64,000 nt of DNA from an uncultured Flavobacteriaceae bacterium. GTDB lineage: Bacteria; Bacteroidota; Bacteroidia; Flavobacteriales; Flavobacteriaceae. The notes under the pieces were generated by a model that saw nothing but the letters and a program-made list of their open reading frames with translations, ran no database searches and was not told where the DNA came from. Position numbers and translations under genes: made by a program. The DNA is taken from the NCBI GenBank assembly GCA_947502495.1, contig CANNAC010000010.1, positions 1 to 64,000 on the forward strand, written 5' to 3'. Shown here piece after piece: positions 1,078-42,670 of the stretch (positions are counted from its first letter, which is position 1; each line of letters begins with the position of its first letter).

Positions 1078-1085
1078 AATTAAAA

Positions 1086-1115: not shown

Positions 1116-1139
1116 ATAAAATAAATATAACAAATTAGA

Positions 1140-2075: not shown

Positions 2076-2085
2076 ATAAAAGATT

Positions 2086-4029: not shown

Positions 4030-4046
4030 CAAAAAATAGAGTAAAC

Positions 4047-4078
4047 AAAAAACCACCAAGAAATTGGTGGTTTTTTTA
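4047..4078 (+). terminator. Rho-independent terminator of the adhesin-PorP-OmpA operon
   Basis: Stem AACCACCAA (4051-4059) pairs with TTGGTGGTT (4064-4072), loop of 4 nt, preceded by A-rich and followed by T-rich sequence; 20 bases after the OmpA stop codon. Confidence 0.88.
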
Positions 4079-4420
4079 TTTCTATATAATTCTAAAAACT
4101 AAAAAAACGAACTTCATTTAAGTATACCTTTTTTATGGCTTTCATATCTAAAATTTAGTATAAGCTTTAAATGTCGATATAGTCAATTAATTTTTCTCCA
4201 AACAGGTGTTAAAATCTCTCTTTTTAATACTATCGTATTTATCGAATTATTATACTGTGATATAGGTTTATAGTTTTTTATCGAAGTGCGCTATAATAGC
4301 ACTTAAAATCTTATTTTTTGGATGCTTTTAGAAGATTGATTGGTTGTGCGTGTAAGAGATATCAGTTTAGTTGTATGTATTTAAGTAGACTTGGCTTCGG
4401 TTAATTGTCTGTTAAAACCA
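4079..4420. other. Intergenic DNA left of the element
   Basis: No ORF with recognisable protein features on either strand. The sequence is very AT-rich and lies between the OmpA terminator and the terminator at 4421-4456. Before the element inserted, this would have been the DNA downstream of the tRNA-Arg gene. Confidence 0.6.
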
Positions 4421-4456
4421 AAAAACCACTCAAATCATAGTGATTGAGTGGTTTTA
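4421..4456 (-). terminator. Probable original terminator of the tRNA-Arg gene, separated from it by the element
   Basis: A 12-bp stem (4422-4433 with 4444-4455, core CCACTCA/TGAGTGG). Read leftwards it is followed by a T-run. It lies 4 bases outside the left copy of the attachment repeat. Since the tRNA reads leftwards into the attachment site, this hairpin would have ended its transcript before insertion. Confidence 0.6.
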
Positions 4457-4459
4457 GTT

Positions 4460-4497
4460 AGAATTCTCATTCTTTAAAGTGACCTCGACTGGATTCA
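4460..4497. repeat. Left attachment repeat of the element (38 bp)
   Basis: 38 bases identical to 39571-39608, beginning AGAATTCTCATTCTTTAAAG. The last 18 bases match the 3' end of the tRNA-Arg gene (acceptor stem and part of the T arm); the first 20 match sequence just downstream of that tRNA. Identity stops abruptly on both sides, as expected of an att core duplicated by integration. Here the tRNA end is only a fragment. Confidence 0.92.
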
Positions 4498-8163: not shown

Positions 8164-9468
8164 TATAATATTTTTTTTTAATGGGTTGATTTTAAATATA
8201 TAAGAAAAGTTTTTAATAAAAAAACGATATTTATTTGTACGTTTTTTTCTAAATAATGTTAGTGGTTTTTATTTTATTTTTCTTAAGCAGGTAATCTAAA
8301 AGGCGCGAGCCGACTGCGAGATTAGCAAGGCTGGTGTGGTAATAGCACGTTGCTTTTTCAGCAAAAGTGCGTACAACAGCAACGGTTTACCGCAAGGGTG
8401 GCGCATTTTTTGATTTTTTTTTATCGATAGTTTGTGTTTTGATGGTATAGCGGAATATACCTGTTTAGGCAAGTGCAAGGTTTGAAGTAGGCCATGGAAG
8501 GCTAGGGGATAGTTTTCAATGGCGGTTTGGCGGCTTACTTTTGTGTTTGCTATTAGTAGCTAATAGATGTAATGTATTTTCAATAGTTTATTATGGTGGT
8601 ATGCAGTTAGCCAATCCGTTATTTAAATAACTATGGAGAAGGAGATGACATGGACCGGATGAAAGCCGTGCTCTTGTGTGCTGTTTGCGAAATGGGATAC
8701 CCCTTTTGTATGGTAGATGCTATTTACGTTGATGTTTCCGTTTGCATGGAAGAGGTCTCTGCCTAAGCAGGGATTAAGGGGTATCTTATTTGCAATATGG
8801 GATACTCAAAAAATGTGACACCCGTAGCCCACAGATTTTATTTGCATTTTTATTAATTTATGCATCTATTGGAATTAAAAGTACTGCATGTTCTTTTTTC
8901 GTTATGGTTTCTGTGGGTTTTGGCCGCAGCGACCCGCAGGCTCGCATAACATTAAATAGCGGTTGTGCCTTAATAATTAGAATTTGCGCATAGCGCAAAA
9001 CCGCTTTGGATTTTAAGGCACAAGAGTAGCTATGGGTGAGGAAGGAGAGAATGTGTGCAATAAAACAAATAAATAGTACCAACGAGGACGTGTCGCCGCA
9101 GTGGTACTATTTATGGTAAGCACAAATGCGACGATAGAAGCATTTGTGATTATGTACTATGGAACTAAATGGAACGACTGACGAACACCTTATTACCTGC
9201 CTACCTAAATTTTGATGTTCATACTATAGTTGGATTAAAAGATGAATTGCGCGTTGGCTGAAAATACTGGTTGTGGGAATGTAGCGTCTATCCGATAGGT
9301 AGGTGAGAAATGGACATAACTAGTATTGCGCCCTTCTATTATGTTGAAGACAAGCTCTATTGAAAGCTCTTGCGATTGAGAGCGTGTAGCTTTTCGCGGA
9401 ACGAATGAAAGCGTATGTGCTGGAGTTTTGGAGTTATTAAAAAATATCGTCAATCAAAGGCTTATAAG
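8164..9468. other. 1.3-kb hairpin-rich stretch without a convincing gene
   Basis: Short ORFs here have no protein-like features. The region is richer in GC than its surroundings and contains many inverted repeats: 8218-8248 (9-bp A/T-tract stem), palindrome 8618-8631 (GTTATTTAAATAAC), imperfect 18-nt arms at 8687-8705 and 8774-8793, a compound set at 8958-9023 with alternative pairings (GTGCCTTAA/TTAAGGCAC; AGCGGTT/AACCGCT; TTTGCGC/GCGCAAA), a 13-bp stem 9069-9081/9102-9114, a 9-bp stem 9121-9129/9140-9148, and CCTACCT/AGGTAGG at 9200/9297. Candidate structured RNA(s), recombination sites or decayed repeats; nothing specific recognised. Confidence 0.5.
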
Positions 9469-9852
9469 TTATTGTGCATTCTTATCCTTCTTCTCATAAT
9501 TTTGAATTAATGATGAAACAAAAGCGCCACCGGCTGCAGTTGCAAGCCAACCCCATATACCAACACCCGTACCTAAGGCGGCAATACCAATACCTCCTGT
9601 TCCAAAAACAAACAAACCGGTTATAGCGCCAAGAAAAGCCCCAATAAAAAGCTTTGAACTAGGAGATTGCTTAGACCACATTATTTTTTTTATCTCCAGT
9701 ACTTTCTCCTTTGTTTTAAGATCTGATGCCTGAATACTTTGAACTTCTTTCAAGAGAGTAATTAATTTCTCCTTTTTTGAGCTAGATAATTTTGAGAAAT
9801 ATTTAATTCCTTTTTCTAAGTTCATTTCAATGTTGTCTCCAATATTTTTCAT
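9469..9852 (-). CDS. Small glycine-rich membrane protein, last gene of the 16-gene cluster (127 aa)
   Basis: 127 residues: a charged helical N-terminal half (to about residue 65), then two hydrophobic Gly/Ala-rich segments (LFIGAFLGAITGLFVFGTGGIGIAALG and GIWGWLATAAGGAFVSSLI, glycine-zipper-like) and a charged tail. The ATG overlaps the stop of the 538-aa gene as ATGA, so expression is coupled. Such small helical-hairpin proteins at the end of defence operons are sometimes membrane-disrupting effectors; that role is inferred here. It parallels the 115-aa glycine-rich membrane protein at 16620. Confidence 0.6.
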   Translation of the reverse strand: MKNIGDNIEMNLEKGIKYFSKLSSSKKEKLITLLKEVQSIQASDLKTKEKVLEIKKIMWSKQSPSSKLFIGAFLGAITGLFVFGTGGIGIAALGTGVGIWGWLATAAGGAFVSSLIQNYEKKDKNAQ

Positions 9853-11465
9853 TTGAATATTTTTAATGCCTCCTCTGCTGCTACTTTAAGGCTTCCATTT
9901 TGTTTTTTATATTCATCAAGGTCTTTTAAACACTTAATTAATATTTCCTCGGTTATTTCACTTTCTTGGATACCTATTGCTTTTAATGCATTTAATATTT
10001 TAGATAAAAATGATTTTCTTTTTTTAAGAATATTTTCAAATTCTTGAAAAGTAAAAAGAGATTTGTTATCAGTTTTGATGTTGTCTGAAAATAAATCAGC
10101 TTCCTGTTTTCTTATATCATTAATCTTACCTATAGAGGGAGAAACTTCTTCATTATTTTTATTTTCGATTGGAGTTTTTTCCTCTTCTTCTTCTTCTTCT
10201 TCTAAGTTTTTACTTAGTGATGCATCCAAATTAAATTCCCTTTTATCTTTGATACTCCCTTCATTGGTTTTAAGTTTTGTTTTACCCTTGCTATTTTGAG
10301 GGGTAATTAAAGGCTTGTTATCTTGTTTTGTGTTAACGGTAAGATCAATTTCCACTGGTTTTTCTTCCTGATTAGAGTTTTTGTTTTCTAATTTAGGCTC
10401 AACAATTTCTTTAGGGCTCCAATCCAGATCTAAATTCTTTTGCGCCTTTAGTAATGTGCTTTTTGAAAAAGATTGTATAGACTTTGATATGGTTTGAATT
10501 GAGAAAGTATATCCTAACATAAAGAGTACTTTTGAGGCTACTACTGAGTCATAATGTTTCAATTCTAGAATATCATCCTTAGCTATCGAAATATCATAGC
10601 CATTCTTTTCTATTTGCTTTTTTAAAAAATAAAAGTAGCTAAAAAGTAAGAAGGCATTTGCATATTTACCATCGTCGGATAAAGTATTTTTAAGTTTATT
10701 AAAACGTGTTTTTTCTTCATTATCAAGATCCGTTTTATCTTCAATATATTGTATGGCCTTATATAATGTTTTACTATTAATTGCTGATTTTTCTTTAATC
10801 ACGAAGCTATAGAAAGTACTTCTTGTAATTTGATCGACTTCCTTATTTAACTTTTTCATACCTACGCAGGCAGCTTTTATTACTGCTTCTACATTTCCTT
10901 CTGGGATGAAACTTGGTGTAATATTAAAATCAATAAGATGTGCTAGAGTAGAATCATTGCCGTTAGGAATAACTTCATTTAATTGAAATAATGTAGCTGT
11001 TTTGAAATCTGTTATAAATTCTTCCTTTGGATTGGAAACCTGATATAACGAACAAAGTTGTTTTCCTGCTTTATATCTTAAAAGATGGCTTCTGTTATTA
11101 ATAAAAGATTTATAAAGTTTCGGATCTAAAGGTTCTAAAACATTGAAGTCAGTATTCAGTTTAGAAGATAGTAATTTTGCTCCTATTTCTGACAAAGGGA
11201 TTAGCGAAGAAATTCCTTTGAATTCTAATATTGGCCCATTATCATAGCCTATTGAATTAGTATTGTATTCGATTAAAAACACTTCATGTTCTTGTTCGTA
11301 AATAGGTAACGAGTTTTGTAAAAGAGTTATTTTCTGTTTGTCGGTTAACTGCATAAATTCCTCATAAGAGAAATTAATTATTCTATCTGATGCTATTCTT
11401 GTACTATCATATTTAATTAGATAGTTTAGCTCTGTACGTTGTAGGATGATAATTATATTTTTCAT
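9849..11465 (-). CDS. Unrecognised 538-aa protein with acidic linker
   Basis: The ORF extends to 11513 but overlaps the helicase gene there; MKNIIIIL at 11465, ten bases after the helicase stop, is the better start. The first ~340 residues look like a globular alpha/beta then helical domain (FLIEYNTNSIGYDNGPILEF; KTLYKAIQYIEDK). Residues ~345-460 are a charged low-complexity linker including a run of eight Glu encoded by a TTC/GAA trinucleotide repeat (near 10180-10205). The C-terminal ~75 residues (FTFQEFENILKKRKSFLSKILNALKAIG) are helical. Its stop overlaps the next gene as ATGA. No motif identifies a function; possibly a scaffold or substrate-recognition partner of the helicase. Confidence 0.6.
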   Translation of the reverse strand: MKNIIIILQRTELNYLIKYDSTRIASDRIINFSYEEFMQLTDKQKITLLQNSLPIYEQEHEVFLIEYNTNSIGYDNGPILEFKGISSLIPLSEIGAKLLSSKLNTDFNVLEPLDPKLYKSFINNRSHLLRYKAGKQLCSLYQVSNPKEEFITDFKTATLFQLNEVIPNGNDSTLAHLIDFNITPSFIPEGNVEAVIKAACVGMKKLNKEVDQITRSTFYSFVIKEKSAINSKTLYKAIQYIEDKTDLDNEEKTRFNKLKNTLSDDGKYANAFLLFSYFYFLKKQIEKNGYDISIAKDDILELKHYDSVVASKVLFMLGYTFSIQTISKSIQSFSKSTLLKAQKNLDLDWSPKEIVEPKLENKNSNQEEKPVEIDLTVNTKQDNKPLITPQNSKGKTKLKTNEGSIKDKREFNLDASLSKNLEEEEEEEEKTPIENKNNEEVSPSIGKINDIRKQEADLFSDNIKTDNKSLFTFQEFENILKKRKSFLSKILNALKAIGIQESEITEEILIKCLKDLDEYKKQNGSLKVAAEEALKIFK

Positions 11466-11475
11466 CTTTATTTTT

Positions 11476-12651
11476 TTAAAAAACGACGTCGTCGTTATCA
11501 TTTTTTGAATCATTTATCTCCTTAACAGGAGTGCTTTTAAGAAATCTGTTATATCCCGAGTACATTACATTTGTAAAGGTTATAAATAAATCTCTTTTAG
11601 CTCTAGACAAAGCTACAAGAATTAAAGCATTTTCATTGTCTGATGCCCCTAAATCTGTTTGAATATTTGGTAATGCCACTGCATCAAAGTCTAAACCTTT
11701 AGAAGAGTGGTATGTCATAATCACGATTTTATTTTCACTATCTGCTTGCTCAAGCGAACCAACATCGCTTCCAACATACATCAATGGAACACCTTGATTA
11801 TTTAAGTGTTTGTTCATTGCTTCAAATATTCTACTTTCTGTATCATAATCTGGATAAGTCCCTTTGGACCATTTCTTCTTACCTTCTAAAGCTAAAACAG
11901 TATCTACATATTTTATAATATCAATTCTTTTAAAGAATAACACAGCATTTACTTCACCTGGTCTATCTATATTGATTTGTTTAGATTCTTTCCATGAAAA
12001 TTCTATTTCTTTTTGATAAGAATCGGCTTTAAACAGTCTAATTTCGGAATCTTCTCTTCCAATATGTACCATGTCAGCAAAAAGATCTGTATACACATTC
12101 TTCAGTACGCTAATAAGCGTTCTAGTAAGCCGATAAATAGTTGTTGTGTTTTTAACCTCAGGATTTAGTTCTTGTATTATTTCTTTTTTTGTTGCAGGTC
12201 TTTCGTTAAAATTAGGGACAGAAGAGTAAATCGATTGTGCTGCATCTCCAGCAATGATTAATTGATTACAACCCTTTTTCATTCTTTCCAAAAGAACTGT
12301 TGGGATATCCTGTATCTCATCACAGAAGATAGCATCAAATCTTTCTGTTCTATAAAGGCGTCCATTAATGTCATAAATAGTTATTACTGGAATAGTCCTA
12401 CCTTTTAATGCCGGAATTTGCCTTAATCCAGAAGACAACAAATCTATCAACGCATGTGTAAAAACAACAACTACAATTTTTGCATTTGGATTACGTATTA
12501 TATAGTCTGTTAGCGCATGTAGTAATACTATAGATTTCCCAGAACCTGCATGACCTTGTATCCAAACAGGTTTGCCATTCAAATCATTCATTTCTTCAAT
12601 AATTTCTCTTTGCTCAGGACCAAGCCTAGCTTCTTCTATCATCCACTGCAT
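11476..12651 (-). CDS. Small UvrD/Rep-like superfamily 1 helicase or ATPase
   Basis: 391 residues with clear SF1A motifs: Q-motif region GPEQREIIE, Walker A GHAGSGKS (33-40), motif II DEIQD (111-115), motif III GDAAQSIY (about 135-142), motif V TYHSSKGLDFDAVALPN and motif VI VALSRAKRDLFITFT. It is much shorter than UvrD or Rep (~700 aa), so the 1B/2B insertions are minimal. It may unwind or translocate on DNA or RNA, or act as an ATP-driven switch. It follows the methyltransferase-Hsp70 gene by 3 bases and precedes the 538-aa gene by 10, placing it in the second half of the cluster. Confidence 0.85.
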   Translation of the reverse strand: MQWMIEEARLGPEQREIIEEMNDLNGKPVWIQGHAGSGKSIVLLHALTDYIIRNPNAKIVVVVFTHALIDLLSSGLRQIPALKGRTIPVITIYDINGRLYRTERFDAIFCDEIQDIPTVLLERMKKGCNQLIIAGDAAQSIYSSVPNFNERPATKKEIIQELNPEVKNTTTIYRLTRTLISVLKNVYTDLFADMVHIGREDSEIRLFKADSYQKEIEFSWKESKQINIDRPGEVNAVLFFKRIDIIKYVDTVLALEGKKKWSKGTYPDYDTESRIFEAMNKHLNNQGVPLMYVGSDVGSLEQADSENKIVIMTYHSSKGLDFDAVALPNIQTDLGASDNENALILVALSRAKRDLFITFTNVMYSGYNRFLKSTPVKEINDSKNDNDDVVF

Positions 12652-12654
12652 ATA

Positions 12655-15156
12655 TTATGTTTTTTTTATAATTGGTTTAACTCTAATGATTGCTGAGTTA
12701 GTAACTAAGTCACAAATAACTCTTGATTCTTGATTTATTTTTATAATTGCTTTTCTAGCTTCTATAGATTGCTCCCATTTAAAGTGGATGCTTTCATTGG
12801 TGATCTCCGAATATAACTCTAAGGAATTTATACCCTTTTCAATGTTAATCTCGTATTCTAAAGTAGGAAGTACTTCTCCTTTTTTAAATATAGTTTTTTG
12901 TTTTCCACTTTCAATGATATTAATATTTCTATTTAGCACAGATTCTATAATCTGTTTACCAAAAGCATTCGTGACAAATGATTGTATGGCATTGCCTAAA
13001 GCAACCTGTTCTTGACTATTATTAGGCATGATTATTTTTGAGACATCAAAATAAGTAGCACATAATGATCGCAAATAGGGGTTTTTAGCACCACCACCTG
13101 ATATTATTACATGATCAAGTTCACTTCGTTTTAAAGCTGCGCTAGAAAGCGTTTTATCTATACTATCTTTAAACCCCCTAAACACTTTATTTCCTGAGAA
13201 ATAAGCTTTCATAATTTCATTAAATTCGAAAAAACTAAACTTAAGGCTGTTACTATTTCCGTAAGACCCAATATGGCAATTTCTATTTTCATTGGAGTTA
13301 GCTAGATCTGGCAAAGTATACCCTACTTGAGCATCTGTCATAAACGATTTGCAAAATTGAATTTTTATTTCTTCACAATTTTTCAAAATAAAATCTTCAT
13401 CTATAACAATACTACTATCTTTTTCAACAAGTTTATTCGCTATCAGTTTGTTAATAAGATTACCGCCAATATTTTTATTCCTATAGATTGCTAAATTTTC
13501 AGCAATTACATTATCGGAGTCCTTATTTAATTTAATGGCGCAGCAATCCACAGTTCCAGCTCCTACATCAATAACTAAAACATTTAAATCCTTATCTAAA
13601 TTTAAAGCTAAATTTTCTTGATAAATAGTTCCAAGAAGTGAAGATACTGGCTCTTCAACAAAAGAGAATGTATCTAATTCAAAGCCAGCTTGAACAATAT
13701 ATTTTTCGAGTAGCTCTTTCTCTTTTAACCCATAATTTGCAGGAGTACTAAAAGATAATCTTTTTTCGAAAGGCAATTTTTTTGCAATAACAAGTCTATC
13801 AATTTCACTTTTCAACCTTTTAAAGAAAACAACTAGAGCATCTGCACCATTCCTAATTGAATACTCAGCGTTATTATAAAGAACTGAAGTTGGATAAATT
13901 AAGTTTTCTAACTCCAATATATTTTCTTTGAAACCATACCAACCGTTAGTTCCTAAAACTAAATCACTTCTTTTTTCTTGAGCATACCTTCCTAGTAAAA
14001 ATCTATTATTAACTACACCTATAATTGAAGGGATAATTGTACTTGTAGAGCTGTAACCCAAATGATCCTTTTGCTCTATTTCAAGAAGTTCTACTTTGAG
14101 CTTGTCTTTATATAGGTAAGCAATAGAGCATACAGAGCTAGAGGTTCCAAAATCTATCCCAATAAATGTCCTGTCGGTTAAATCTTGTATTGCCCCCTTT
14201 ACATTTCTTAGTGGATGATAAATTGCATTAATACCAATTGAATCACACTCTTTAATACAAACTTTAGGGGAAGCTTTTTTACTTAATAATGAAAAATCAT
14301 ATTTAAGATTTTTACGAGGGATTAGTCCATCTGTATAGTCCAGTAAATTATCTCTAATAATTTGAGATGGTCTATGATTGATAGAAGTCATTGCAGATGC
14401 ACTTCTGTTTTTAGAAGTGGTTACTTTACTTATGTTTAAAAATTGACTTTCTATTTTTTGTTCTAATTGCGCAATTTTTGATCTTACACTGGTTGTTAAG
14501 TCTACCATCAATAATGAAGAAAAATCTGAAAGTGATTTAAAAATATCAATCACATTTTTTTCTAGGATATGATAGTCTTCTCGAGCTATTTCATTAATAC
14601 AATTTTGAATAACAACTATATCCGCCTTCTCAAAAATGGATGCATTAGAAACAATTGAATTTTTATCAACAAGATTAAATTGATGACTATTCCATTTAAT
14701 GGAAACTTCATTATATTGATTCAGTTCTGGTAGTAAAAATCCTGATAAGGCGGAATGACTATAATTCCAAGTATTAGCATTTATATCTAAAATATCAATG
14801 GATATGTTTTTCATATTAGGACAATATTCTAGAATATACTTTATTGTTCCATAAGCTTCAGATCCAGGACCTCCACCAATGAAGACCGCCGAAAAATCGC
14901 TCTTAGTTTTCATTAATTGTAAATCCTGCTCTACCAATATTTTGTATATGAGTTGGTAATAATGGGGTAGGTAGGTTATAAGATATGCACTTTGAATTTT
15001 CTGTAATGCATAATTGACATAAACAGGAGGTGGTTTTCTATATGAAGCTCTTAATTGTCTTACGTCTGGTTTTATTGATTGTAAATATTCTTTTATTTCT
15101 ACAGACTCATCTTTTAAATCATCTATTGCCTTTACAATATCATCATATACACTCAT
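12655..15156 (-). CDS. Methyltransferase-like domain fused to Hsp70/DnaK-type ATPase
   Basis: 833 residues. Residues ~80-230 form a Rossmann-type SAM-methyltransferase-like domain: glycine loop FIGGGPGSEAYG (~88-99), acidic strand end SIDILDIN, and ADIVVIQNCINEIA in the motif IV region. From ~328 an actin-like Hsp70 ATPase begins: phosphate-1 IGIDFGTSSSVC, TPANYG, FVEEPVSSLLG, phosphate-2 VIDVGAGTVDCC (~525), adenosine motif IISGGGAKNPY (~683) and EQVALGNAIQ, then a short beta-rich tail instead of a full substrate-binding domain and lid. The start ATG overlaps the AlkB stop (TAATG). The fusion suggests ATP-controlled conformational switching coupled to a methylation or SAM-sensing module. The substrate (RNA, DNA or protein) cannot be read. 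I recall no named system with it. Confidence 0.82.
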   Translation of the reverse strand: MSVYDDIVKAIDDLKDESVEIKEYLQSIKPDVRQLRASYRKPPPVYVNYALQKIQSAYLITYLPHYYQLIYKILVEQDLQLMKTKSDFSAVFIGGGPGSEAYGTIKYILEYCPNMKNISIDILDINANTWNYSHSALSGFLLPELNQYNEVSIKWNSHQFNLVDKNSIVSNASIFEKADIVVIQNCINEIAREDYHILEKNVIDIFKSLSDFSSLLMVDLTTSVRSKIAQLEQKIESQFLNISKVTTSKNRSASAMTSINHRPSQIIRDNLLDYTDGLIPRKNLKYDFSLLSKKASPKVCIKECDSIGINAIYHPLRNVKGAIQDLTDRTFIGIDFGTSSSVCSIAYLYKDKLKVELLEIEQKDHLGYSSTSTIIPSIIGVVNNRFLLGRYAQEKRSDLVLGTNGWYGFKENILELENLIYPTSVLYNNAEYSIRNGADALVVFFKRLKSEIDRLVIAKKLPFEKRLSFSTPANYGLKEKELLEKYIVQAGFELDTFSFVEEPVSSLLGTIYQENLALNLDKDLNVLVIDVGAGTVDCCAIKLNKDSDNVIAENLAIYRNKNIGGNLINKLIANKLVEKDSSIVIDEDFILKNCEEIKIQFCKSFMTDAQVGYTLPDLANSNENRNCHIGSYGNSNSLKFSFFEFNEIMKAYFSGNKVFRGFKDSIDKTLSSAALKRSELDHVIISGGGAKNPYLRSLCATYFDVSKIIMPNNSQEQVALGNAIQSFVTNAFGKQIIESVLNRNINIIESGKQKTIFKKGEVLPTLEYEINIEKGINSLELYSEITNESIHFKWEQSIEARKAIIKINQESRVICDLVTNSAIIRVKPIIKKT

Positions 15157-15776
15157 TAGCTTACAATGGTTCTAAAAGTTAAATTTATTCTTGAATCTGA
15201 AATTTTTTTCTGTACTGGAATTTGATGCAACCAATTATGCTGTAGGGCCCCTTTCATTATTACTAATGAGCCTGGTTTAAGTTCAAGCTGAAGTTTTTGA
15301 TTAGGATCTTCTTTATGTTTTAAATCAAATCGTCTTATTGCTCCTAGGCTTACAGACGCGATTAATGGATTGATTCCTAACCCTTTTTCATCATCTGCGT
15401 GCCAACTTACTTTATCATTGCCATCACGATAAAGATTCAATAAAACACTATTAAAATCTGAATCAGGTAAAAAGCTTTCAATGACTTTTTTTATACCTAA
15501 GAGTTCTTTAGTCCATGGTTCTGGGTTACAGAATATACCAGAATATTTATAATTAAATCCTTCATAGCCATACCATGCCGTTTTACGAGGTACAGGATAT
15601 GTTTTTCCATACATTTTAATTTCTTCTTGACGCCATTTTATGTTTTCAGTAAATTTTTTAAAATACATATTAGCCTTGTCTAATGGCATAAAATTTTCCA
15701 TAAACCATACTTCACCATCTTTTAGTGTTATTTTTTCAAACTCTCGTTTTTTAGGTATTTGGTTAAATAAATCCAT
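15156..15776 (-). CDS. AlkB-like 2-oxoglutarate/Fe(II) dioxygenase
   Basis: 206 residues, close in layout to AlkB2/ALKBH2-type proteins. Iron ligands H126 and D128 (SWHADDE) and H184 (WLHQIP) are present, with 2-oxoglutarate-binding arginines R196 and R202 (RINLTFR) and the typical LNLYRDGNDKVSWH, ASVSLGAIRRF and LKPGSLVIMKG blocks. Family members oxidatively remove alkyl groups from N1-A/N3-C in DNA or RNA. Chromosomal AlkB genes usually stand alone; here it is one base-overlapped with the methyltransferase-Hsp70 gene inside a defence-type operon. It might reverse the operon's own modification or counter modified phage nucleic acid. All catalytic residues look intact. Confidence 0.92.
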   Translation of the reverse strand: MDLFNQIPKKREFEKITLKDGEVWFMENFMPLDKANMYFKKFTENIKWRQEEIKMYGKTYPVPRKTAWYGYEGFNYKYSGIFCNPEPWTKELLGIKKVIESFLPDSDFNSVLLNLYRDGNDKVSWHADDEKGLGINPLIASVSLGAIRRFDLKHKEDPNQKLQLELKPGSLVIMKGALQHNWLHQIPVQKKISDSRINLTFRTIVS

Positions 15777-15823
15777 AATATTGTATTGATGATTAAAGTG
15801 TTGATGTTTAGTTGAATAAGGTG

Positions 15824-16627
15824 TTATGCTTCTGTAAATCTATTCTTTACGATATAAAACATTTTACTTATAACATTATGGCAATCCTCAAATATGTTAT
15901 ATGCTTCCTCTTCAGAATAAATTACTTTATTAAAATGAATTATTTCTATTCTTTGATTGTTTTTTAAGTTAGATAAGGAATCGATTAATGTTTTAAATCC
16001 TGAGTTTAGTGGGTCTTTTTCTTTTAATTTTGATTGGGTTTTAGCTATTAATGTTCCCCATTTCATGCTAGGTTTAGAACTGGTTTTAACCATTTTATTG
16101 TAAAAATAGATATTGTAGTTTTCTGTTGCTTTTAAAATATGAATTACGGCGGAAGTATAAATTCCGTAAGCATAACATTGACAAAAAAGAATTAAATCTT
16201 CTCTAATGGATTCTGGTATTTCAATTAAAATCTGGTAGTTATTAAATAATTTGTATGGTTCCTTTAATAAAATCTGAATATCCATTTTTTTTGACTCAGG
16301 AAATGCAATTACTTTAGATGATAAATAAATATATAGGCATTCCCAAATCTCCTTAATATCGATTTTCATTTTTTCAAACAAACTCTTTTCAATCCTATTC
16401 TCAGGTTGTTTTTCAGTAGCATCATTTAATTCTTTAAAATGAAGAAAATAGCTACTATGCATATCCGTTTTTTTTTCAATTTCTACATTGCTGAAATCAT
16501 TAATTCTGTGAACAAAACCTGTTATAAGCCTATAGAAACAAATATTTGAAGTGTCTAATCTACAAAGCTCAATTTCCTTAAATAATACTCCAATATTTAA
16601 AATATCTGTCGCTGGTATTCTATTCAT
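15824..16627 (-). CDS. HEPN-like protein with RX4H motif (267 aa)
   Basis: 267 residues, mostly helical. The C-terminal half (about 145-265) has a helix AYGIYTSAVIHILKATENYN and later NNQRIEIIHFNKV, giving R226-x4-H231, the RX4-6H signature of HEPN ribonucleases, followed by a long helix (EEEAYNIFEDCHNVISKMFYIV). This order resembles DUF4145-type HEPN proteins. The N-terminal half is unrecognised. HEPN RNases are frequent effectors in toxin-antitoxin and antiphage systems, so this is a candidate toxin of the second half of the cluster. It overlaps the preceding membrane-protein gene by 8 bases. Assignment from motif only. Confidence 0.55.
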   Translation of the reverse strand: MNRIPATDILNIGVLFKEIELCRLDTSNICFYRLITGFVHRINDFSNVEIEKKTDMHSSYFLHFKELNDATEKQPENRIEKSLFEKMKIDIKEIWECLYIYLSSKVIAFPESKKMDIQILLKEPYKLFNNYQILIEIPESIREDLILFCQCYAYGIYTSAVIHILKATENYNIYFYNKMVKTSSKPSMKWGTLIAKTQSKLKEKDPLNSGFKTLIDSLSNLKNNQRIEIIHFNKVIYSEEEAYNIFEDCHNVISKMFYIVKNRFTEA

Positions 16628-16967
16628 GATTTTGTTCTAATAAATCTTTTAATTTTAATTTTAAAGAACGAGATATTGGGTAGTTTTCAATTTTAGATTT
16701 AATACTCTCTTTAGTTTCGCCCTTATCTAATAACCCTTCAATTGTTCTAATGTAAATTTTTTCAAATGAATATTTTGAAATTGCCATGGAAACATAGACA
16801 GAAAACCCAAGAACTCCAAGACCGCCGACCATTCCCGCTGGTCCTCCAAGAACAGCAAGAGAAGTTGTAATCGCTGCAGCCCCAGCATAACCACTTACAT
16901 TTATTGCAACTAGTAGTATTAATCCTGGAATACCTAAGCCAACTATTTTTTCTACTATTTTATCCAT
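16620..16967 (-). CDS. Glycine-rich small membrane protein (115 aa)
   Basis: 115 residues with two hydrophobic, glycine/alanine-rich segments (IPGLILLVAINVSGYAGAAAI and GGPAGMVGGLGVLGFSVYVSMAI) and a basic helical C-terminal tail (KYSFEKIYIRTIEGLLDKGETKESIKSKI). No signal peptide. It overlaps the HEPN-like gene by 8 bases and follows the 92-aa Lon-like fragment by 31. It looks like the 127-aa protein at the operon end in size and Gly content, but I could not align them convincingly. A membrane effector or anchor is possible. Confidence 0.6.
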   Translation of the reverse strand: MDKIVEKIVGLGIPGLILLVAINVSGYAGAAAITTSLAVLGGPAGMVGGLGVLGFSVYVSMAISKYSFEKIYIRTIEGLLDKGETKESIKSKIENYPISRSLKLKLKDLLEQNHE

Positions 16968-16998
16968 GAATTTTTATTTTAAATTTAAACAATATGTT

Positions 16999-17277
16999 TT
17001 ACTCTCCTAAAATACCTTTCTGAATCAACATTTGCTTGTTTGAATAAAAAGGTACATCTGTATTCACTAAAACTGATGTAGGGCCGTTTGCTAGTTCATT
17101 TAAGTTAGCCATTGGTACAATTACCGTTTTAGCCCCATTATCGGAAAGCATTGTTATTTTATCTGCAAAATTTATAGTGTGATTATAAGTCATTGATAAT
17201 CCAGTTTCTCGGTGTTGAGTTAAATCGAAGGTTAATGTTTTTCTTATATTTAATTTAAGATATTCCTCAACCATCAT
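16999..17277 (-). CDS. Stand-alone Lon/BrxL C-terminal-like fragment (92 aa)
   Basis: 92 residues. The stretch FADKITMLSDNGAKTVIVPMANLNELANGP (shown here only to name the match, residues 37-66) parallels the end of Lon-type proteolytic domains, where KEK..AA..G.KTV.IP..N..DL..IP contains the catalytic Lys; K40 falls at that position. The upstream part with the catalytic Ser is absent, so it cannot be a complete protease. BREX BrxL proteins carry a similar C-terminal domain. The start overlaps the PP2C stop as TAATG, so it is cotranslated with the kinase/phosphatase module. It may be a relic domain kept for complex assembly. Confidence 0.55.
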   Translation of the reverse strand: MMVEEYLKLNIRKTLTFDLTQHRETGLSMTYNHTINFADKITMLSDNGAKTVIVPMANLNELANGPTSVLVNTDVPFYSNKQMLIQKGILGE

Positions 17278-17978
17278 TATTCAAATTCTGAAATTAAGAT
17301 TAAACTAGCATTATCATTAGCCTCTTTTTTTAATCTATCGTTTAATTTATTTATGAAGCCTGTTTGTTCGTTTTTCATTAAAAATAAAAGTGTCTGACTA
17401 TCAAAAATACTATGCACTCCATCAGAACATATTATAAGTTCATCATTTTCTTTAACAATTAACTCTTGATAAGAAATCACAGATTTCTTAATGTCTCCTT
17501 GAATAGAACGAGTTACTATATGAGAATATTTAGAGGATTTAAAATCTTCATTTGAAGATTCATTATTTGAAAGTTCATTTATTAAATTATGAGACTTACT
17601 TTCAAAAAGCAACTTGTTATTGGAATAATGCAAAATTTTAATATCTCCTACCCAAAAACATTTAGCTATACCTTGTGATAATACTATAGCCCCAAGAGTT
17701 GTCCCCATCTTAGATAGGTTTTGTTCTTGGTATTGTCTTATTGCTAGATTTGCTTTATTAATAGCTTTTTGAATAGTTTCCTCATTTATTTTATCAATAT
17801 TTGACAAAAAAGTTAATACGTTTTCAGTGGCTATTTGCGCTGCTAATTCACCATTGTCATAGCCTCCCATACCATCTGCAACAAGGTATAAATGCGTATT
17901 AGTATCTATGCTCTTTGTTAAGATAACATCTTGATTGACTTTCCTTTTTCCTATATGGGTTAATGTCGTTGATTTCAT
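17277..17978 (-). CDS. PP2C-family serine/threonine phosphatase
   Basis: 233 residues, the compact bacterial PP2C catalytic domain. Visible motifs: RKVNQD (metal-binding Asp 17), LVADGMGGY (D35-G36), MGTTLGAIV, CFWVGD, ELIICSDGVHSI and the final metal site DNASLI. It removes phosphate from Ser/Thr in a Mg/Mn-dependent way. One gene separates it from the 517-aa protein and two from the double-kinase protein, so it is probably the antagonist of that kinase, giving a reversible phosphorylation switch. TAATG overlaps on both sides (with the HerA-type gene and the 92-aa gene) show tight coupling. Confidence 0.93.
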   Translation of the reverse strand: MKSTTLTHIGKRKVNQDVILTKSIDTNTHLYLVADGMGGYDNGELAAQIATENVLTFLSNIDKINEETIQKAINKANLAIRQYQEQNLSKMGTTLGAIVLSQGIAKCFWVGDIKILHYSNNKLLFESKSHNLINELSNNESSNEDFKSSKYSHIVTRSIQGDIKKSVISYQELIVKENDELIICSDGVHSIFDSQTLLFLMKNEQTGFINKLNDRLKKEANDNASLILISEFE

Positions 17979-20900
17979 TAATTACCTGTAGCTTGTATAG
18001 TGCTACCTCCGTGTTTTGTTACTCTTGGTCTAGTTGAAACTTTTACTGGTTTTGCAGAAATACTTTTCTCTGTAGCTTTAGTGGCCCATAAAAACCCTTC
18101 TCCAGGTGTTAATGCACTCATGTCCGCTGGCGTCAATGTTGACAATTGAGTAATTGATTTTTGAATATGCTTAAGCCATTGTGGACTATTAAATTTATGA
18201 AGTAATACAACTGAACTCAATTCAATTATTTCATTTGGAAGACTAGGTGGGTCTTGACTTGCTATCATTATACTTACACCTTTATGTCTCATCTCACGTA
18301 TTGCCGTTACAATATTGCCTGTCAAATCTTTATTGTCCATATACTTATGGGCTTCATCAAAAACTATAAACTTATTAAAGTGAAGACCATTAAGGTTTTT
18401 AACTGCTGAAAAAATATTGAGCATTATAACAAATAAACCTAATGCTTCATCTTTTACTATAAACTCATCTCTTAGATCGACAACAATTAACCTACCTGGT
18501 TTTAAAACATCTCTCATCATAAAGCTATCATCGACATATTCGCGAGCAAAACTCAATTTTTGTCTAGCTAAAGCTTTTTGAGAGTTGCTTAATAACTCAG
18601 AAGCTTCAACACTTTCAGCAAGACCTTCGATAGTAATATTTGATCGATGCTCTTTCATAATTGCTTTTAATTGTCTTATGTATGTAGAATCATTACCGAT
18701 AGCACCTAAAATGAACATCCAATCTTGTACGTTTAATTCTTTAGAATTAAACGCAATTGGTAGAACCGTAATAGATGGATATTCAGCTTTACGTTCTTCA
18801 ATTTTATCTTTTGGAGTTAAAATTATAACATCTTCGATGTTATCAGGTTCGGCACCATATCTAGCTTTTAATTTAGCCAGTTCATTTTCTTTATCATTTG
18901 GTAAAATCATGGAAGTAAACTCTGGCTCATAATCCATACTTTCACTGTAGTGAAAAATTACTCCCGCTAATGGTGATGGTAATAGATTAATATTGCTAAA
19001 TTGTTTTAGAACCATTTCTGAAATAGTTCCTATAGTATAACTTTTTCCTCCACCTTGAACACCAAATAGACTTATTGTATTGGTTTCGCTTAGGTCTATT
19101 GCTATTTTCTTTTGAAGAATACTCTCTCCAAGAATACCAAATTGCTCACTAGGAGAAGTTTTCCCTATAAGGATATCATATTCTGGTACAATATGCTCTT
19201 TAGATGGTTCGTCCGAAATTGATGTTTTTTCCTCTGCAACTAAACTATGCTTTTCAGTATGTTCAGGTTCAGGATAAAGGTTTGTATGATTAATAGGAGT
19301 CTCGTCAACAATAATTTCATTTTCTTGAATTGTTTCATCTGTATCTAGATCCTCTATACCTTTATCGATTTCTTTTTCAAGCTTTGACTTGAATTTTTGC
19401 ATAAATGGTTTAAGCTCATTCTTATTTCCAAAGGCTTTGTTCAAATCCTTATCAAAGTCACTTTCTTCTAGTCTTTTTGTATTAAGATCAGAATCTGGGT
19501 CTAATATGTCATCAATTAACTTACCTCCAAAAGTGAAAAAGGTAGAATCATTATCTAATACCGTTTTCTTATGTCTTTCTTTTGCGGCAAAATCGAAGAT
19601 TAAACCTAGCCTTTTAAATCTTAATGTAAATCCTTCATCTAGTTTTTGCATAAATGCTAGATATTGGTTATAAGCATTATTCGATAAATATTCATACCTA
19701 TTTGCTCTTTCTAAATAGAACGTAAGCAGCGATTTTAGTTCCTTATTCTTAATCTCTCTATCTAGACGATCGAAAGAATTATTATATCCAGGATCAAAAT
19801 GATTTCTCAATGCTTCAATAGTGTTCTCTATTTGATCTAACATCTTTAATCTTAGAGTATCTTTTTCAGTTTCTCCTAATGACTTTCTACATTTTATTTC
19901 TATCACAGAAATAGAAATTTCTTTTTTAGAAGGATTCATAGAAACCAAAAGGTTATCTGCTCTGGATTTACTGCCAGATGGAAGGTTTTCAAATAAGTTT
20001 TGATGTAAATCAATAGGGATTAAGAAAGCATCTTTCAACATTTCTTTTTTCTCTAAAACTCGCTTTGTAAATGCGGAACCAATAACCTCAAAAGCCTTGT
20101 TTTTTGTAGAATTTAACTGTAAAACTAGAGAGCTACTTACTGCTCTCAGGTCTTCTAATAAAATTTTTATTTTATGTTCATCTTGCTCATTGTGTATGTC
20201 TAAATTAAACTCTTCAAAATGTGGTCCTAATAAACCTAGAACTTCAGATGTTGGTCTAGTTGTTAAAAAAGATGAAATTCCAAGTATTTCTTCACCAGGA
20301 ACGTAATCTAATAAAAATGGAATTTTACCATCTTTTGAAGGTTGATCAAAAATTTGTGGCCCTAAATTTTTATCAAATGTAATTACCCAATCAGAATAAT
20401 CATGCAAGTGCGTTAAAAGAACTTTATCTCTATCGTTTAATCTTAGTTGAGTAGAAGGGATAGAAGAGGTGAGTTCTGATGCTAATGCACTACTAACAAA
20501 GCTCTGGATGTTTTCAAAAAGCTTAATTCCGTTTGCTCCAGTAGTATCATATTTAATTGGTAATTTATTACCTTGAATAAATCTATTCCATTTTACTTGA
20601 GATCCATTTTCGTCGACCAATACAGATGATTCTGTTATTAATCCATTTAAATAAAAATTTCGATCTTCAATGGATGGTTTTATTAATTCTATAGAAATAG
20701 GGAATGGGCTTATTAAAAAGCTTAAATGAGATGTATAGCTTGAAGGATCTTTAAGAAAATCAGTAATATTATTAATAGAAAAACGCAATTTAGGAAACAA
20801 TCTATTCCTAGAAGGTTGTGAAAAAGCTTCAGCTTCCTCAGAAATGTTCGATTCCGGGTTAATTAATGTTTTTAAAGACTGTCCATGTTCTATAATTTTA

Positions 20901-23389
20901 TCATCGCCTTTAAAGATTCTAACTTCATAGTTAATATTTTCAAATTCCTTTTCTTTTTCTAGCTCAACAAAAGCATTTGAAAATACCTCAGCATCACCAG
21001 CGTTAAATAAATTAATTACTAATTTATCTATGTATGGATGTTGTGCTAAGTAATTTTTTATATGACGGATAACTAACTTTAAGCTCAAATCTGTCTCAAC
21101 AAAGTTGTCCTTTGTTATATTAAATAACAATCTTAAATAGTGCTGTAACTGCCTAGATATAGAAGTCATCCCATTTTTTGACTCTTGTGATATTGTACTT
21201 AAATACAATCCCCAACCGAATGATAACTCACCACTATAATTATATGATTTTTGCGAAATAGGTTCTATTAATACTAGCTGGTTATTATCTGGAGAAAGAT
21301 TCCCAATAAATAAATCTTCTAAATTGTGTGACCAAGAATCCTTATGACCTGAGAATTCTTTAGTTTGTCTTTCCCAATCTTCAAACACTTCTATTAACTG
21401 AATTGCCCAGGCAAGACGAAGCGGGTGTAATGGAGATATTAATAAAGCTTCTACTTTACTACCGTCTGGCAGTTTACTTTTTATTCGAGAAACGTCAATC
21501 ATTTGTAGTTCTATTAAGAACTCTTTTAATTTTGTTTTTTCCTCTAAATCAATTTCATCAGATTCTAATTGTGCTTTTAATTTACTCGTCCATTTTGTGT
21601 AACTATCAACATATTTTTTGATTTCTTCCTTATAGATAAATATGTTCGTTGTTTCAAATATTCCATCTTCATTTTCATTTGAATTTACTATCGCATCAAA
21701 AACTTCCTTTCTTTGCTTCAATAGTGACTTTGGAGCTATATCATTTAATTCACTTTTTACGAATTCAAGAGTCTCGAAACCTATAGCAAGTTTATTGCTT
21801 TTTAGTTGACATTTTACATAACCTAGACTATCTGCGTTTTCCAAAAACTTATTTTCTATTTGTCTAAGTTTAGTAGAAATATTAATTTGATAGTTATGCT
21901 TGTCTGAATAATTAATATGGAAAGTAGAAGAGTGTTTTTCTTTACCATCATTTATCCAAAGATTTGAGGTTTCTGAAGGCTCAGGAATATGGGAGTCTTC
22001 ATCGGTTTTTAAAGCATCAATACGATATTTTAAGGATGCTTGCATTACATTGTTAAGCTTGTCCTTTCGTTGATTCTCATCTCTATCTATTACATCCTCA
22101 ATTACATAATCAAAATCCTCTGAATCGCATGTAAGCTTGAACGGAAAAGAGTTTTTGTGTGCATCTTGATTATCTTTTTTAGCTTGTTCCCATGCTTTTT
22201 GAATTTTATAATCTCTAAATTCATCATCTGCATTTAGCATATTCCCGTGCTCATCTTCAGCTAAAACTTTTATAAAATATGATCCTTCTTCTATAATGTT
22301 GGGATTAAGTTCTAATGTAACATCTCTATATGGTCTGTTTGAATTTGAGTTTTTTACTTTTCTTAAAACAGTAATTTCTTCTCCGTTACTGCCATTTACC
22401 GCCATTAAAATAATTCTAAAGAATTTTAGATCCTTAATGTCTTTAGGGTTTGGATTTGTTCGGAAACGAACTTTTAATTTTGCAATTTTACTTTCTTGAG
22501 CGTATAAAACATTGGTTCCTTCTTCAACTTTTAAATCAGTAGACTTAATTTCATCAGTAATTAGCTTGATGTGCGTGAAATCTAAATCTGGTATTGGCCA
22601 ATTACTAAAATTCAAATTACTATAATCATCATTTATTGATTCACAAATATCTTGAGCATTTTTAGCTTCCTTTTCGGTTTTTAAAAAATCGACAATATCT
22701 TTTTGTATGGAGTCATTTTCTAACCTTAAATCTGCGATTCGATCATATAGAGGCTTGTTAAATGCAGATAATAACTCTACACTTTCCCTATTAAAATTAA
22801 GTCTTGATCTTATTTTTTCTCTATGACTCAATAAAGTATTATCAGGAATTAGTGATAAATGAAATATATTATTTCCAATTGCATTAGTATCATAATTAGC
22901 TTCACTAATAGCTATCAAATAATCAATTATCTGAGAGTTACTAGGGTCTAAATAACCTATAATATCCGTAGAAATCACGTCATAAATATCGTCAGGAATT
23001 TCATCAATTAATGTATCTACTAGTTCGGTTTCGATACCTTCTAATGAAATCTCTTTAAAGGTTGCATTACCATAAGAATCTTCTGCAGCTGTTCTACTAT
23101 TTGAAGGAATTAAGATAAGTAGTGGCTTATCTTGTTTATTTCTCAATTCAATTAATTTTGTAGCAGATATATATCTGTCATCTGATTTCTCATCTTCCGA
23201 AACTATATAAAGATCTAAATGCTTATGCTTTTCTTTTATAACATTCCATAGATATTCTAATTCTAAAACTCCTAGTCCTGTAATTTTCATACAATGTCCT
23301 GCAGAAGCATTTTCAAAGTCAAGCTTATGTAACTCTAGAATTAGGTCAATAATCTTTTGGTAGTATATATTTATAGTAATTGTATTCAT
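17978..23389 (-). CDS. Large HerA/FtsK-type ATPase with internal nuclease-like motif (MAD8-like)
   Basis: 1803 residues. The C-terminal ~380 residues form a HerA-type ATPase: Walker A GVQGGGKS (~1440), Walker B FIVFDEAHKYMDN (~1676) and IMIASQDPPSLP. Around residues 1140-1170, SRADNLLVSMN followed by VIEIKCRKS gives a D...ExK pattern typical of PD-(D/E)xK nucleases. An acidic linker (~1340-1400) separates the two. The N-terminal ~1100 residues are unrecognised, with beta-sandwich-like stretches near 290-400. Size and layout match DptH and the ATP-binding protein MAD8 of the methylation-associated defense system, as I recall them. Probably the DNA-translocating restriction effector, since no HsdR is present. 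Confidence 0.8.
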   Translation of the reverse strand: MNTITINIYYQKIIDLILELHKLDFENASAGHCMKITGLGVLELEYLWNVIKEKHKHLDLYIVSEDEKSDDRYISATKLIELRNKQDKPLLILIPSNSRTAAEDSYGNATFKEISLEGIETELVDTLIDEIPDDIYDVISTDIIGYLDPSNSQIIDYLIAISEANYDTNAIGNNIFHLSLIPDNTLLSHREKIRSRLNFNRESVELLSAFNKPLYDRIADLRLENDSIQKDIVDFLKTEKEAKNAQDICESINDDYSNLNFSNWPIPDLDFTHIKLITDEIKSTDLKVEEGTNVLYAQESKIAKLKVRFRTNPNPKDIKDLKFFRIILMAVNGSNGEEITVLRKVKNSNSNRPYRDVTLELNPNIIEEGSYFIKVLAEDEHGNMLNADDEFRDYKIQKAWEQAKKDNQDAHKNSFPFKLTCDSEDFDYVIEDVIDRDENQRKDKLNNVMQASLKYRIDALKTDEDSHIPEPSETSNLWINDGKEKHSSTFHINYSDKHNYQINISTKLRQIENKFLENADSLGYVKCQLKSNKLAIGFETLEFVKSELNDIAPKSLLKQRKEVFDAIVNSNENEDGIFETTNIFIYKEEIKKYVDSYTKWTSKLKAQLESDEIDLEEKTKLKEFLIELQMIDVSRIKSKLPDGSKVEALLISPLHPLRLAWAIQLIEVFEDWERQTKEFSGHKDSWSHNLEDLFIGNLSPDNNQLVLIEPISQKSYNYSGELSFGWGLYLSTISQESKNGMTSISRQLQHYLRLLFNITKDNFVETDLSLKLVIRHIKNYLAQHPYIDKLVINLFNAGDAEVFSNAFVELEKEKEFENINYEVRIFKGDDKIIEHGQSLKTLINPESNISEEAEAFSQPSRNRLFPKLRFSINNITDFLKDPSSYTSHLSFLISPFPISIELIKPSIEDRNFYLNGLITESSVLVDENGSQVKWNRFIQGNKLPIKYDTTGANGIKLFENIQSFVSSALASELTSSIPSTQLRLNDRDKVLLTHLHDYSDWVITFDKNLGPQIFDQPSKDGKIPFLLDYVPGEEILGISSFLTTRPTSEVLGLLGPHFEEFNLDIHNEQDEHKIKILLEDLRAVSSSLVLQLNSTKNKAFEVIGSAFTKRVLEKKEMLKDAFLIPIDLHQNLFENLPSGSKSRADNLLVSMNPSKKEISISVIEIKCRKSLGETEKDTLRLKMLDQIENTIEALRNHFDPGYNNSFDRLDREIKNKELKSLLTFYLERANRYEYLSNNAYNQYLAFMQKLDEGFTLRFKRLGLIFDFAAKERHKKTVLDNDSTFFTFGGKLIDDILDPDSDLNTKRLEESDFDKDLNKAFGNKNELKPFMQKFKSKLEKEIDKGIEDLDTDETIQENEIIVDETPINHTNLYPEPEHTEKHSLVAEEKTSISDEPSKEHIVPEYDILIGKTSPSEQFGILGESILQKKIAIDLSETNTISLFGVQGGGKSYTIGTISEMVLKQFSNINLLPSPLAGVIFHYSESMDYEPEFTSMILPNDKENELAKLKARYGAEPDNIEDVIILTPKDKIEERKAEYPSITVLPIAFNSKELNVQDWMFILGAIGNDSTYIRQLKAIMKEHRSNITIEGLAESVEASELLSNSQKALARQKLSFAREYVDDSFMMRDVLKPGRLIVVDLRDEFIVKDEALGLFVIMLNIFSAVKNLNGLHFNKFIVFDEAHKYMDNKDLTGNIVTAIREMRHKGVSIMIASQDPPSLPNEIIELSSVVLLHKFNSPQWLKHIQKSITQLSTLTPADMSALTPGEGFLWATKATEKSISAKPVKVSTRPRVTKHGGSTIQATGN

Positions 23390-23395
23390 TATTAT

Positions 23396-24949: not shown

Positions 24950-24951
24950 AA

Positions 24952-31058: not shown

Positions 31059-31064
31059 ATAATA

Positions 31065-42655: not shown

Positions 42656-42670
42656 ACTATAATTCTATAA

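Follow-up and report, generated by a model that had tools for sequence, protein, structure and literature searches.

A recurrent four-gene block joining AlkB, a methyltransferase–Hsp70 fusion, a helicase and protein U in a Flavobacteriaceae mobile element, and its possible role in defence

The stretch of DNA analyzed here, hereafter the window, comprises 64,000 nucleotides (nt) of contig CANNAC010000010.1 (assembly GCA_947502495.1) from an uncultured Flavobacteriaceae bacterium. At positions 9469–17277 it carries eight genes, directly behind an operon resembling the MADS defence system. All eight are present as predicted open reading frames (ORFs) on the minus strand, co-directional and tightly packed (table 1; the DNA of 16500–17400 was read directly). 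Four of them form a block, here called the quartet, which encodes an AlkB-family dioxygenase, a methyltransferase (MTase) fused to an Hsp70-type ATPase (MTase::Hsp70), a small superfamily 1 (SF1) helicase, and a protein that we name U. Across the cluster, PP2C, which closes the MADS-like operon, overlaps the 92-aa gene by 1 base, 31 bp lie between the 92-aa and 115-aa genes, the 115-aa and 267-aa genes overlap by 8 bases, and the largest gap, of 47 bp, separates the 267-aa gene from AlkB. AlkB and MTase::Hsp70 share 1 base, MTase::Hsp70 and the helicase are 3 bp apart, and U overlaps the 127-aa gene by 4 bases. The helicase and U are 10 bp apart if U starts at 11465 and overlap by 38 bases if it starts at 11513; relatives of U begin at the residue matching 11465. 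A preliminary description of the locus, made from the sequence, had the eight genes running on without a promoter-sized gap and gave the U gene 538 codons. Rechecked coordinates confirm the first point, and the start seen in relatives agrees with the second.

Table 1. Features of the eight-gene cluster and of the element around it (positions in the window)
Feature	Position	Strand	Basis or remark
AlkB-family Fe(II)/2-oxoglutarate (2OG) dioxygenase, 206 aa, ALKBH3/ALKBH2-like (core 1)	15156–15776	-	PF13532
MTase::Hsp70 fusion, 833 aa (core 2)	12655–15156	-	AlphaFold2 (AF2) model, Foldseek, HSP70 Pfam
Small SF1 helicase, 391 aa (core 3)	11476–12651	-	Viral_helicase1, UvrD, UvrD_C
Protein U, 538 aa (core 4)	9849–11465	-	ORF opens at 11513; start at 11465 inferred from relatives
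127-aa glycine-rich membrane protein (flanking, outside recurrent core)	9469–9852	-	hydropathy; weak LeoBC tail similarity
267-aa protein (flanking, outside recurrent core)	15824–16627	-	HEPN a guess only
115-aa glycine-rich membrane protein (flanking)	16620–16967	-	hydropathy; LeoBC tail 0.015
92-aa protein like C-terminal tail of BrxL, Lon-related (flanking)	16999–17277	-	PADLOC, NCBIfam
PP2C phosphatase, final shared gene of MADS-like operon	17277–17978	-	PF13672 2.7e-18
MADS-like operon: methyltransferase, specificity subunit, kinase, mad7-like, HerA/mad8-like	17978–33077	-	PADLOC mad2, mad5, mad6, mad7, mad8
Tyrosine-recombinase integrase of element	38111–39364	-	Phage_integrase 4.7e-16; PHROG integrase 9.6e-41
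Left 38-bp direct repeat of 35-kb element	4460–4497		paired with right repeat
Right 38-bp direct repeat	39571–39608		overlaps 3' end of tRNA-Arg (39590–39664)

The quartet recurs as a unit. Besides the window, fusions of this MTase domain to Hsp70 occur at five loci, all in Bacteroidota, those of Salegentibacter sp. 24 (L016), metagenome-assembled genomes (MAGs) of a Flavobacteriales member (L017), a Chitinophagaceae member (L018) and Chryseobacterium gleum (L019), and Algoriphagus resistens (L020). At all five, AlkB lies ahead of the fusion and the SF1 helicase and U lie behind it, in the same order and on the same strand, with junctions of −38 to +13 nt; counting the window copy (9849–15776), the order is identical in six loci. 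L017 and L019 are near-identical and therefore not independent. AlkB, MTase::Hsp70, the helicase, and U are securely one recurrent four-gene block. The preliminary description had taken all eight genes as one module, to be abandoned if they never recur together or had been brought together by chance. Within the data searched, only the four core genes recur together (in 5/5 fusion loci); the remaining four fail this test. That unrelated genes came together by chance is barely credible as an account of the locus, being refuted for the quartet by its identical order in six loci; it could still apply to the four flanking genes.

Conservation at the nucleotide level also marks the block. Between the window and the Salegentibacter locus, homology at 77% runs from position 15778, 2 nt ahead of the AlkB ATG, to 10409 within U. 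Ratios of dN/dS between the two (AlkB 0.04, MTase 0.11, Hsp70 0.14, helicase 0.10, U 0.20) indicate purifying selection, the values being rough because dS is 1.1–1.8. Occurrence is patchy. The fusion protein has matches in 5 of 395 genomes of the class, full-length in its own and to one half only in the four others; among 299 genomes of the family it is matched in its own and, for the Hsp70 half only, in one other. The helicase family is found in its own genome and one other among 395 of the phylum. In viral contigs, 64 stretches fit the MTase-domain pattern and none was confirmed, and of 87 SF1 sequences found there 80 were kept, all weak, none of them accompanied by any window protein (tblastn, E 1e-8). 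Phage records gave no match to MTase::Hsp70; queried with the Hsp70 of locus L013, they returned 17 matches, the named ones being DnaK or HscA.

Two of the core proteins look like intact, active enzymes, as judged from conserved residues and a predicted structure. AlkB matches PF13532 at 5e-32, and its nearest solved structures by sequence are ALKBH3 (1.3e-33) and ALKBH2 (3.5e-31), enzymes that demethylate 1-methyladenine and 3-methylcytosine. Its HxD...H...R active site is present, and H126, D128, H184, R196, and R202 are invariant in 30 of 30 aligned AlkBs. In the fusion protein, residues 1–295 (14272–15156) are a class I S-adenosylmethionine (SAM) MTase domain and residues ∼325–770 an Hsp70-type ATPase, which scores 39.7 bits against a Pfam cut-off of 20.6. 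The MTase half has no match in Pfam and no credible match by sequence among solved structures. Its AF2 model (pLDDT 92.7) was assigned by Foldseek to class I SAM methyltransferases, with a Rossmann-like fold. Both the glycine motif and the acidic residue after strand 2 are present (G96 and D124), and these two residues, together with E100, Q184, N185, C186, N188, and E189 (QNCxNE), are invariant in 30 aligned rows, with G94 kept in at least 90%. Of 50 listed fold matches, mitoribosomal Rsm22/METTL17 overlaps most (TMq 0.61) and the lowest E-values are those of plantazolicin MTase, NNMT, and Dot1L; TM scores for the listed MTases are ∼0.35–0.6.

The helicase exceeds the cut-off of several Pfam models (Viral_helicase1 9.8e-11, UvrD 7e-10, UvrD_C 2e-9), and residues of its ATP-binding and C-terminal motifs are invariant in 8 of 8 aligned sequences. 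Protein U is conserved in the five quartet loci, where its relatives were aligned. It has no Pfam or NCBIfam match and a sole PADLOC match at 0.028; its fold model (mean pLDDT 61) gave no PDB match below E 0.1, and its best match in the viral library, at 0.028, had a TM of ∼0.1. A row pointing to DarT (7omv; E 1.3, probability 0.54) was not used.

Comparison of loci that carry only part of the quartet suggests that it was built from two separable units. One is the AlkB–MTase pair. A scan for the MTase-domain family across 84,980 species (the tool's stated coverage), each represented by a single genome, yielded 31 loci; because it uses short peptide patterns, relatives are missed. Counted here are 33 MTase loci (L008, L010, and L016–L046); L011 and L014 are not counted, as they duplicate L036 and L039, and near-identical species remain. 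Cyanobacteria account for 23 of the 33, and the others comprise the five quartets and loci in Acidobacteriota, Gammaproteobacteria, Poribacteria, Flavobacterium, and Mucilaginibacter. An AlkB ORF lies upstream on the same strand in 29 of 33, at −29 to +83 nt in 28 and at 666 nt in L031, and L029, cut by a contig end, retains an AlkB tail, bringing adjacency to 30 of 33. The MTase occurs without AlkB in L024, L040, and L042, and the next commonest families beside it are found in 6 of 33 loci each. One of these is a DUF1848 gene convergent to the MTase (L010, L024, L025, L029, L040, and L042), a neighbor that is perhaps linked to nucleic-acid repair or modification. Two of the cyanobacterial loci are on plasmids: one on pSYSA, with a type III-B CRISPR locus ∼5 kb away, and one in Picosynechococcus (L036), beside DUF1156 and DUF499 genes. 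The MTase also varies at its C terminus. It ends in TPRs in L028, and 5 of 32 ORFs, all cyanobacterial (L023, L027, L034, L035, and L041), end in a strongly hydrophobic segment (2.5–3.1), the part before which looks like a coiled coil by eye; these proteins may be membrane-anchored.

Divergence of AlkB and MTase is correlated (r 0.79 over 28 rows; r 0.83 over 18 cyanobacterial rows; 0 of 2000 permutations in each case), which shared descent alone could produce. The rows are 28 of 34, the 33 loci plus the window, with L019, L024, L029, L040, L042, and L044 dropped. Together with the adjacency in 30 of 33 loci, this correlation fits a role in which AlkB and MTase act in series on a hypermodified RNA base, as ALKBH8 does in making a hypermodified base in tRNA, with Hsp70 and helicase delivering them. 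Rsm22/METTL17, which has the largest overlap among the listed fold matches, agrees with such a role. But ALKBH2 and ALKBH3 are the top solved structures, ALKBH8 is not among 20 matches, and the TM scores of the listed MTases span a low range, so we regard serial modification as rather unlikely, the more so as correlated divergence is open to the simpler explanation.

The second unit is a trio of Hsp70, helicase, and a third gene, which occurs without the MTase in an Antarctobacter plasmid (L009), L013, a Persicobacter plasmid (L047), L052, and L054. The U proteins of L013, L052, and L054 match quartet U by profile (hhalign 98%, 1.6e-13), and in L009 and L047 the third gene resembles it in position only. 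Hsp70 is split in L052 and also in L012, which ends after it. The tails of the trio Hsp70s match TPR models, the cut-off being exceeded in L013 but not reached in L009, L047, and L054. Among further plasmid matches to Hsp70, the two examined, in Priestia (L048) and Aeromonas (L049), have different neighbors. An Hsp70 86% identical to that of Antarctobacter lies directly behind gene transfer agent (GTA) or phage tail genes (L146:929–10352), where the contig ends. At the N terminus of two Hsp70 relatives there is an HEPN_Swt1 match below the Pfam cut-off, one in the Antarctobacter trio (L009:13467–16346; 0.0015) and the other in a 316-aa ORF (L147:7332–8282; 8.7e-5) beside which no helicase or U was seen. 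In quartets, the MTase holds the N-terminal place of this HEPN_Swt1-like domain. Domain exchange of this kind is common in conflict systems. We infer, with direction set by parsimony, that the quartet arose when an AlkB–MTase pair was joined to an Hsp70–helicase–U trio through gene fusion.

Neighborhoods of the quartet and trio frequently hold defence genes. The quartets of L017–L019 lie between a type IIG restriction–modification (RM) gene and a DruE-like helicase (both cut by the contig in L019), and a DrmD-like helicase is upstream in L017 and L018. The L013 trio adjoins a type II RM system, with an AlkB and a DpdF-like helicase further along, and the L052 trio adjoins a DrmD-like helicase, a type IIG RM gene, and candidate PDC-M04 genes. 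The quartet of Algoriphagus resistens has an FRG-domain gene before it and mobilisation genes after it. That of Salegentibacter starts 305 nt after a tRNA-Asn, with ordinary chromosomal genes upstream; downstream of it are unknown genes and, 3 kb away, a patatin fragment. The gene before AlkB varies, being an FRG gene in L020 and the 267-aa gene in the window; in L017 (7069–8190) and L019 (2844–4022) it is only 41% identical, against 91–99% for the remaining genes, and we propose this position as a variable effector slot. L017 also holds, directly before AlkB (8243–9367), a diverged second relative of the SF1 helicase (∼25% identical) that by eye has lost the first ATP-binding motif.

From this genomic context, we tentatively favor the reading that the quartet is a portable defence cassette that acts on nucleic acid and protects against phages or other mobile elements, and give it a little short of an even chance. 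Several points weigh against it. Independent contexts are few, given the near-identity of L017 and L019. No defence system was recognised beside the L016 quartet or the L047 and L054 trios (the neighbors of the latter two being mostly unscanned), and a defence setting is not established for most cyanobacterial AlkB–MTase pairs. The two enzymes are not obligate partners, since an AlkB lies near the L013 trio without an MTase and 3 of the 33 MTase loci lack AlkB. No substrate of the MTase is singled out by the fold search, in which the largest overlap and the lowest E-values fall on different enzymes. The DUF1848 neighbor of 6 of the 33 MTases could be compatible with repair or modification.

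That last neighbor, the intact ALKBH2/3-like active site, and the loci without recognised defence neighbors (L016, L047, and L054) would suit a nondefensive role, in which AlkB, helicase, and chaperone form a mobile cassette for nucleic-acid repair or maintenance, carried as useful cargo. We consider this unlikely: placement beside RM, Druantia- or DISARM-like, and MADS-like genes is repeated, pairing a methyltransferase with a demethylase would be odd if repair were the only function, and occurrence is patchy (one other helicase match in 395 phylum genomes and one other Hsp70-half match in 299 family genomes). A role in serving the element itself, by stabilising a plasmid or island, helping conjugation, or countering defence, would accord with mobile surroundings that include the window's own element, the Antarctobacter and Persicobacter plasmids, the mobilisation genes of L020, and the GTA or phage tail genes before an Hsp70 in L146. 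No transfer or partition gene recurs in at least 3 of 33 MTase loci, however, and such a role appears distinctly unlikely.

If the quartet is a defence cassette, a possible mode of action follows from its parts. Hsp70, the helicase, and U would together form a trigger, powered by ATP, for recognising foreign protein or the nucleic acid of an invader. Whatever domain is fused to Hsp70 (an MTase here, HEPN_Swt1-like in two relatives) would act on nucleic acid. In the quartet, the MTase would methylate the invader's bases, and AlkB, whose gene comes first, might clear host nucleic acid of this mark and thereby limit self-damage. Defence by reversible methylation, in which a Hsp70-gated MTase poisons invading (or all) nucleic acid, AlkB is the antidote, and the part fused to the trigger is exchangeable, is a speculative scheme that we think unlikely to hold in full; the antidote step in particular is hypothetical, and the unpaired AlkB of L013 and the three MTases without AlkB speak against it. 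Were the defence role correct, the quartet would bring together a dealkylase, an Hsp70 ATPase, and an MTase family for which Pfam has no model. AlkB proteins would gain a role beyond damage repair, and the use of methyl marks as a reversible weapon would become open to test. The suggested route is that one gene fusion linked two gene units, and that the product then travelled as cargo into larger systems based on methylation, or to a place behind them.

The window copy is itself inside a mobile element. Direct repeats of 38 bp, the integrase, and an empty site place the eight genes and the MADS-like operon within a 35.1-kb tRNA-Arg element (4460–39608). The empty site is in a genome of the same genus (G887), where sequences matching window positions 169–4134 (90% identity) and 39590–42913 (86%) are contiguous; that genome has no MTase::Hsp70 match at E 1e-20. 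Two loose ends are that G887 has nothing in that stretch corresponding to window positions 4135–4459, left of the repeat, and that its version of the repeat there is a diverged one with 11 mismatches. Matches of the upstream operon in PADLOC are mad2, mad5, mad6, mad7, and mad8; mad1, mad3, and mad4 are not among the matches listed (the best 25 in several lists), hence the label MADS-like. The assignment rests on PADLOC model names. An AbiEi/AbiEii-type pair (Pfam; window 33095–34919) heads this operon, ahead of its methyltransferase.

Relatives of mad7 are encoded by five of the 395 class genomes, namely the window's own and four others, of which G108 and G193 (not G220 and G394) were examined. 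In G108 and G193, methyltransferase, specificity, kinase, mad7, HerA, and PP2C genes follow in identical order, PP2C being 50% and 31% identical to that of the window, respectively. Genes after PP2C in these two genomes match neither the window proteins nor each other. Because order is common through PP2C and differs beyond it, PP2C is the last shared gene, and the eight genes look to occupy a variable slot behind it. In G108, this slot (L063:1689–4661) holds a NERD/UvrD-like protein with a TBP-TOTE domain. The shared strand, the contiguity with PP2C, and the absence of any gap above 47 bp would fit a reading in which the eight genes extend the MADS-like system as a long accessory arm and depend on it. 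That arrangement is very unlikely: the fetched flanks of 5 of 5 other quartets lack MADS-like genes, save for a 21% match (4.9e-4) of the L017 type IIG enzyme to the MADS methyltransferase, and G108 and G193 carry other genes after PP2C. Of the two possibilities raised in the preliminary description, these findings contradict the accessory arm for the quartet and bear out a separate unit placed behind the MADS-like module. Neighborhoods of the methyltransferase–Hsp70 protein in other genomes, the check that it proposed, show AlkB, helicase, and U together, with no kinase module in the fetched flanks.

None of the four flanking genes (those for the BrxL tail, the two membrane proteins, and the 267-aa protein) has a blastp match (E 0.001) in L016–L020, and the BrxL-tail and 267-aa proteins were not found in plasmids. 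The 92-aa protein matches positions 618–677 of 680 of BrxL in PADLOC (5.9e-9) and, far under the cut-off, in NCBIfam (9.3e-5); it has no Pfam match. Both glycine-rich proteins have hydrophobic stretches above 1.6 (Kyte–Doolittle, 19-residue window), and the similarity to a LeoBC tail in PADLOC is weak also for the 127-aa protein (8.6e-4). For the 267-aa protein there is no Pfam match below 0.05, none in PADLOC or NCBIfam, and, besides itself, one weak match (7.5e-4) in 247 genomes. It contains by eye one RX4H string, RIEIIH, without a match to a HEPN family in the three databases. Of the labels given in the preliminary description, HEPN is therefore not supported, and the Lon-like fragment, two membrane proteins, AlkB, methyltransferase–Hsp70, and SF1 helicase stand. 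Beyond the terminal gene of the cluster, ∼1.3 kb (8164–9468) contain no ORF of at least 75 aa. The −33/−7 promoter pattern of Bacteroidota occurs 6 times in the window against 5.96 expected, and near 15800 and 17280 the minus strand carries none; one occurrence ∼400 nt ahead of the Salegentibacter quartet is at chance level. In a scan of 4000–40000 with Rfam, the sole match was the tRNA.

Among known systems, several share a part with the cluster. MADS models mad2, 5, 6, 7, and 8 match the upstream operon, none is among the PADLOC matches listed for the eight genes (for the helicase, the best 25 of 41), and the quartet occurs without MADS. The sole PADLOC match of MTase::Hsp70, weak and to the Hsp70 half only, is protein B of the candidate system PDC-M61 (1.5e-6). 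Gabija GajB is the best PADLOC match of the SF1 helicase (2.5e-16), which has 391 aa against 369–685 in the GajB models listed; Gabija was rejected, there being no GajA among the listed matches of the eight genes and one GajA match, at 0.0086, at 35195–35890. BREX was also set aside, its only trace being the 92-aa BrxL-tail gene, with no PglZ or BrxC among the PADLOC matches listed. The 2OG part of CARF_2OG matches AlkB (PADLOC 1.8e-51), but the 206 aa of AlkB cover only profile positions 191–351 and include no CARF domain, which dismisses a type III CRISPR component. ALKBH2 and ALKBH3 resemble the window AlkB in sequence and active-site residues; the latter differs in lying in a mobile cassette with MTase::Hsp70. 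Rsm22/METTL17, NNMT, Dot1L, and plantazolicin MTase share the fold of the MTase half, with TMq at most 0.61 among the matches listed. AlkB, methyltransferase, SF1 helicase, and Hsp70 also co-occur in some plant RNA viruses, from which we draw no homology.

No fitting system was found among the listed matches of PADLOC 2023 or in the searchable open literature, newer defence catalogues and closed papers aside. This agrees with the preliminary description, which knew of no antiphage system with this combination, and the quartet is apparently an undescribed cassette. CoCoNuTs come closest, with HEPN and glycine-zipper parts and, as their authors propose, RNA targeting (PMC11090510). They differ from the eight genes and were rejected as an identification, since their McrB GTPase and McrC/DUF2357 partners are missing from the Pfam matches of the latter; the main text of the report does not contain the word AlkB (PMC11090510). 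The nearest idea that we found in print, one without AlkB, is CnuD of type III CoCoNuTs, an Hsp70-like protein in a restriction-type system that occurs in superoperons with RM, BREX, or Druantia (PMC11090510).

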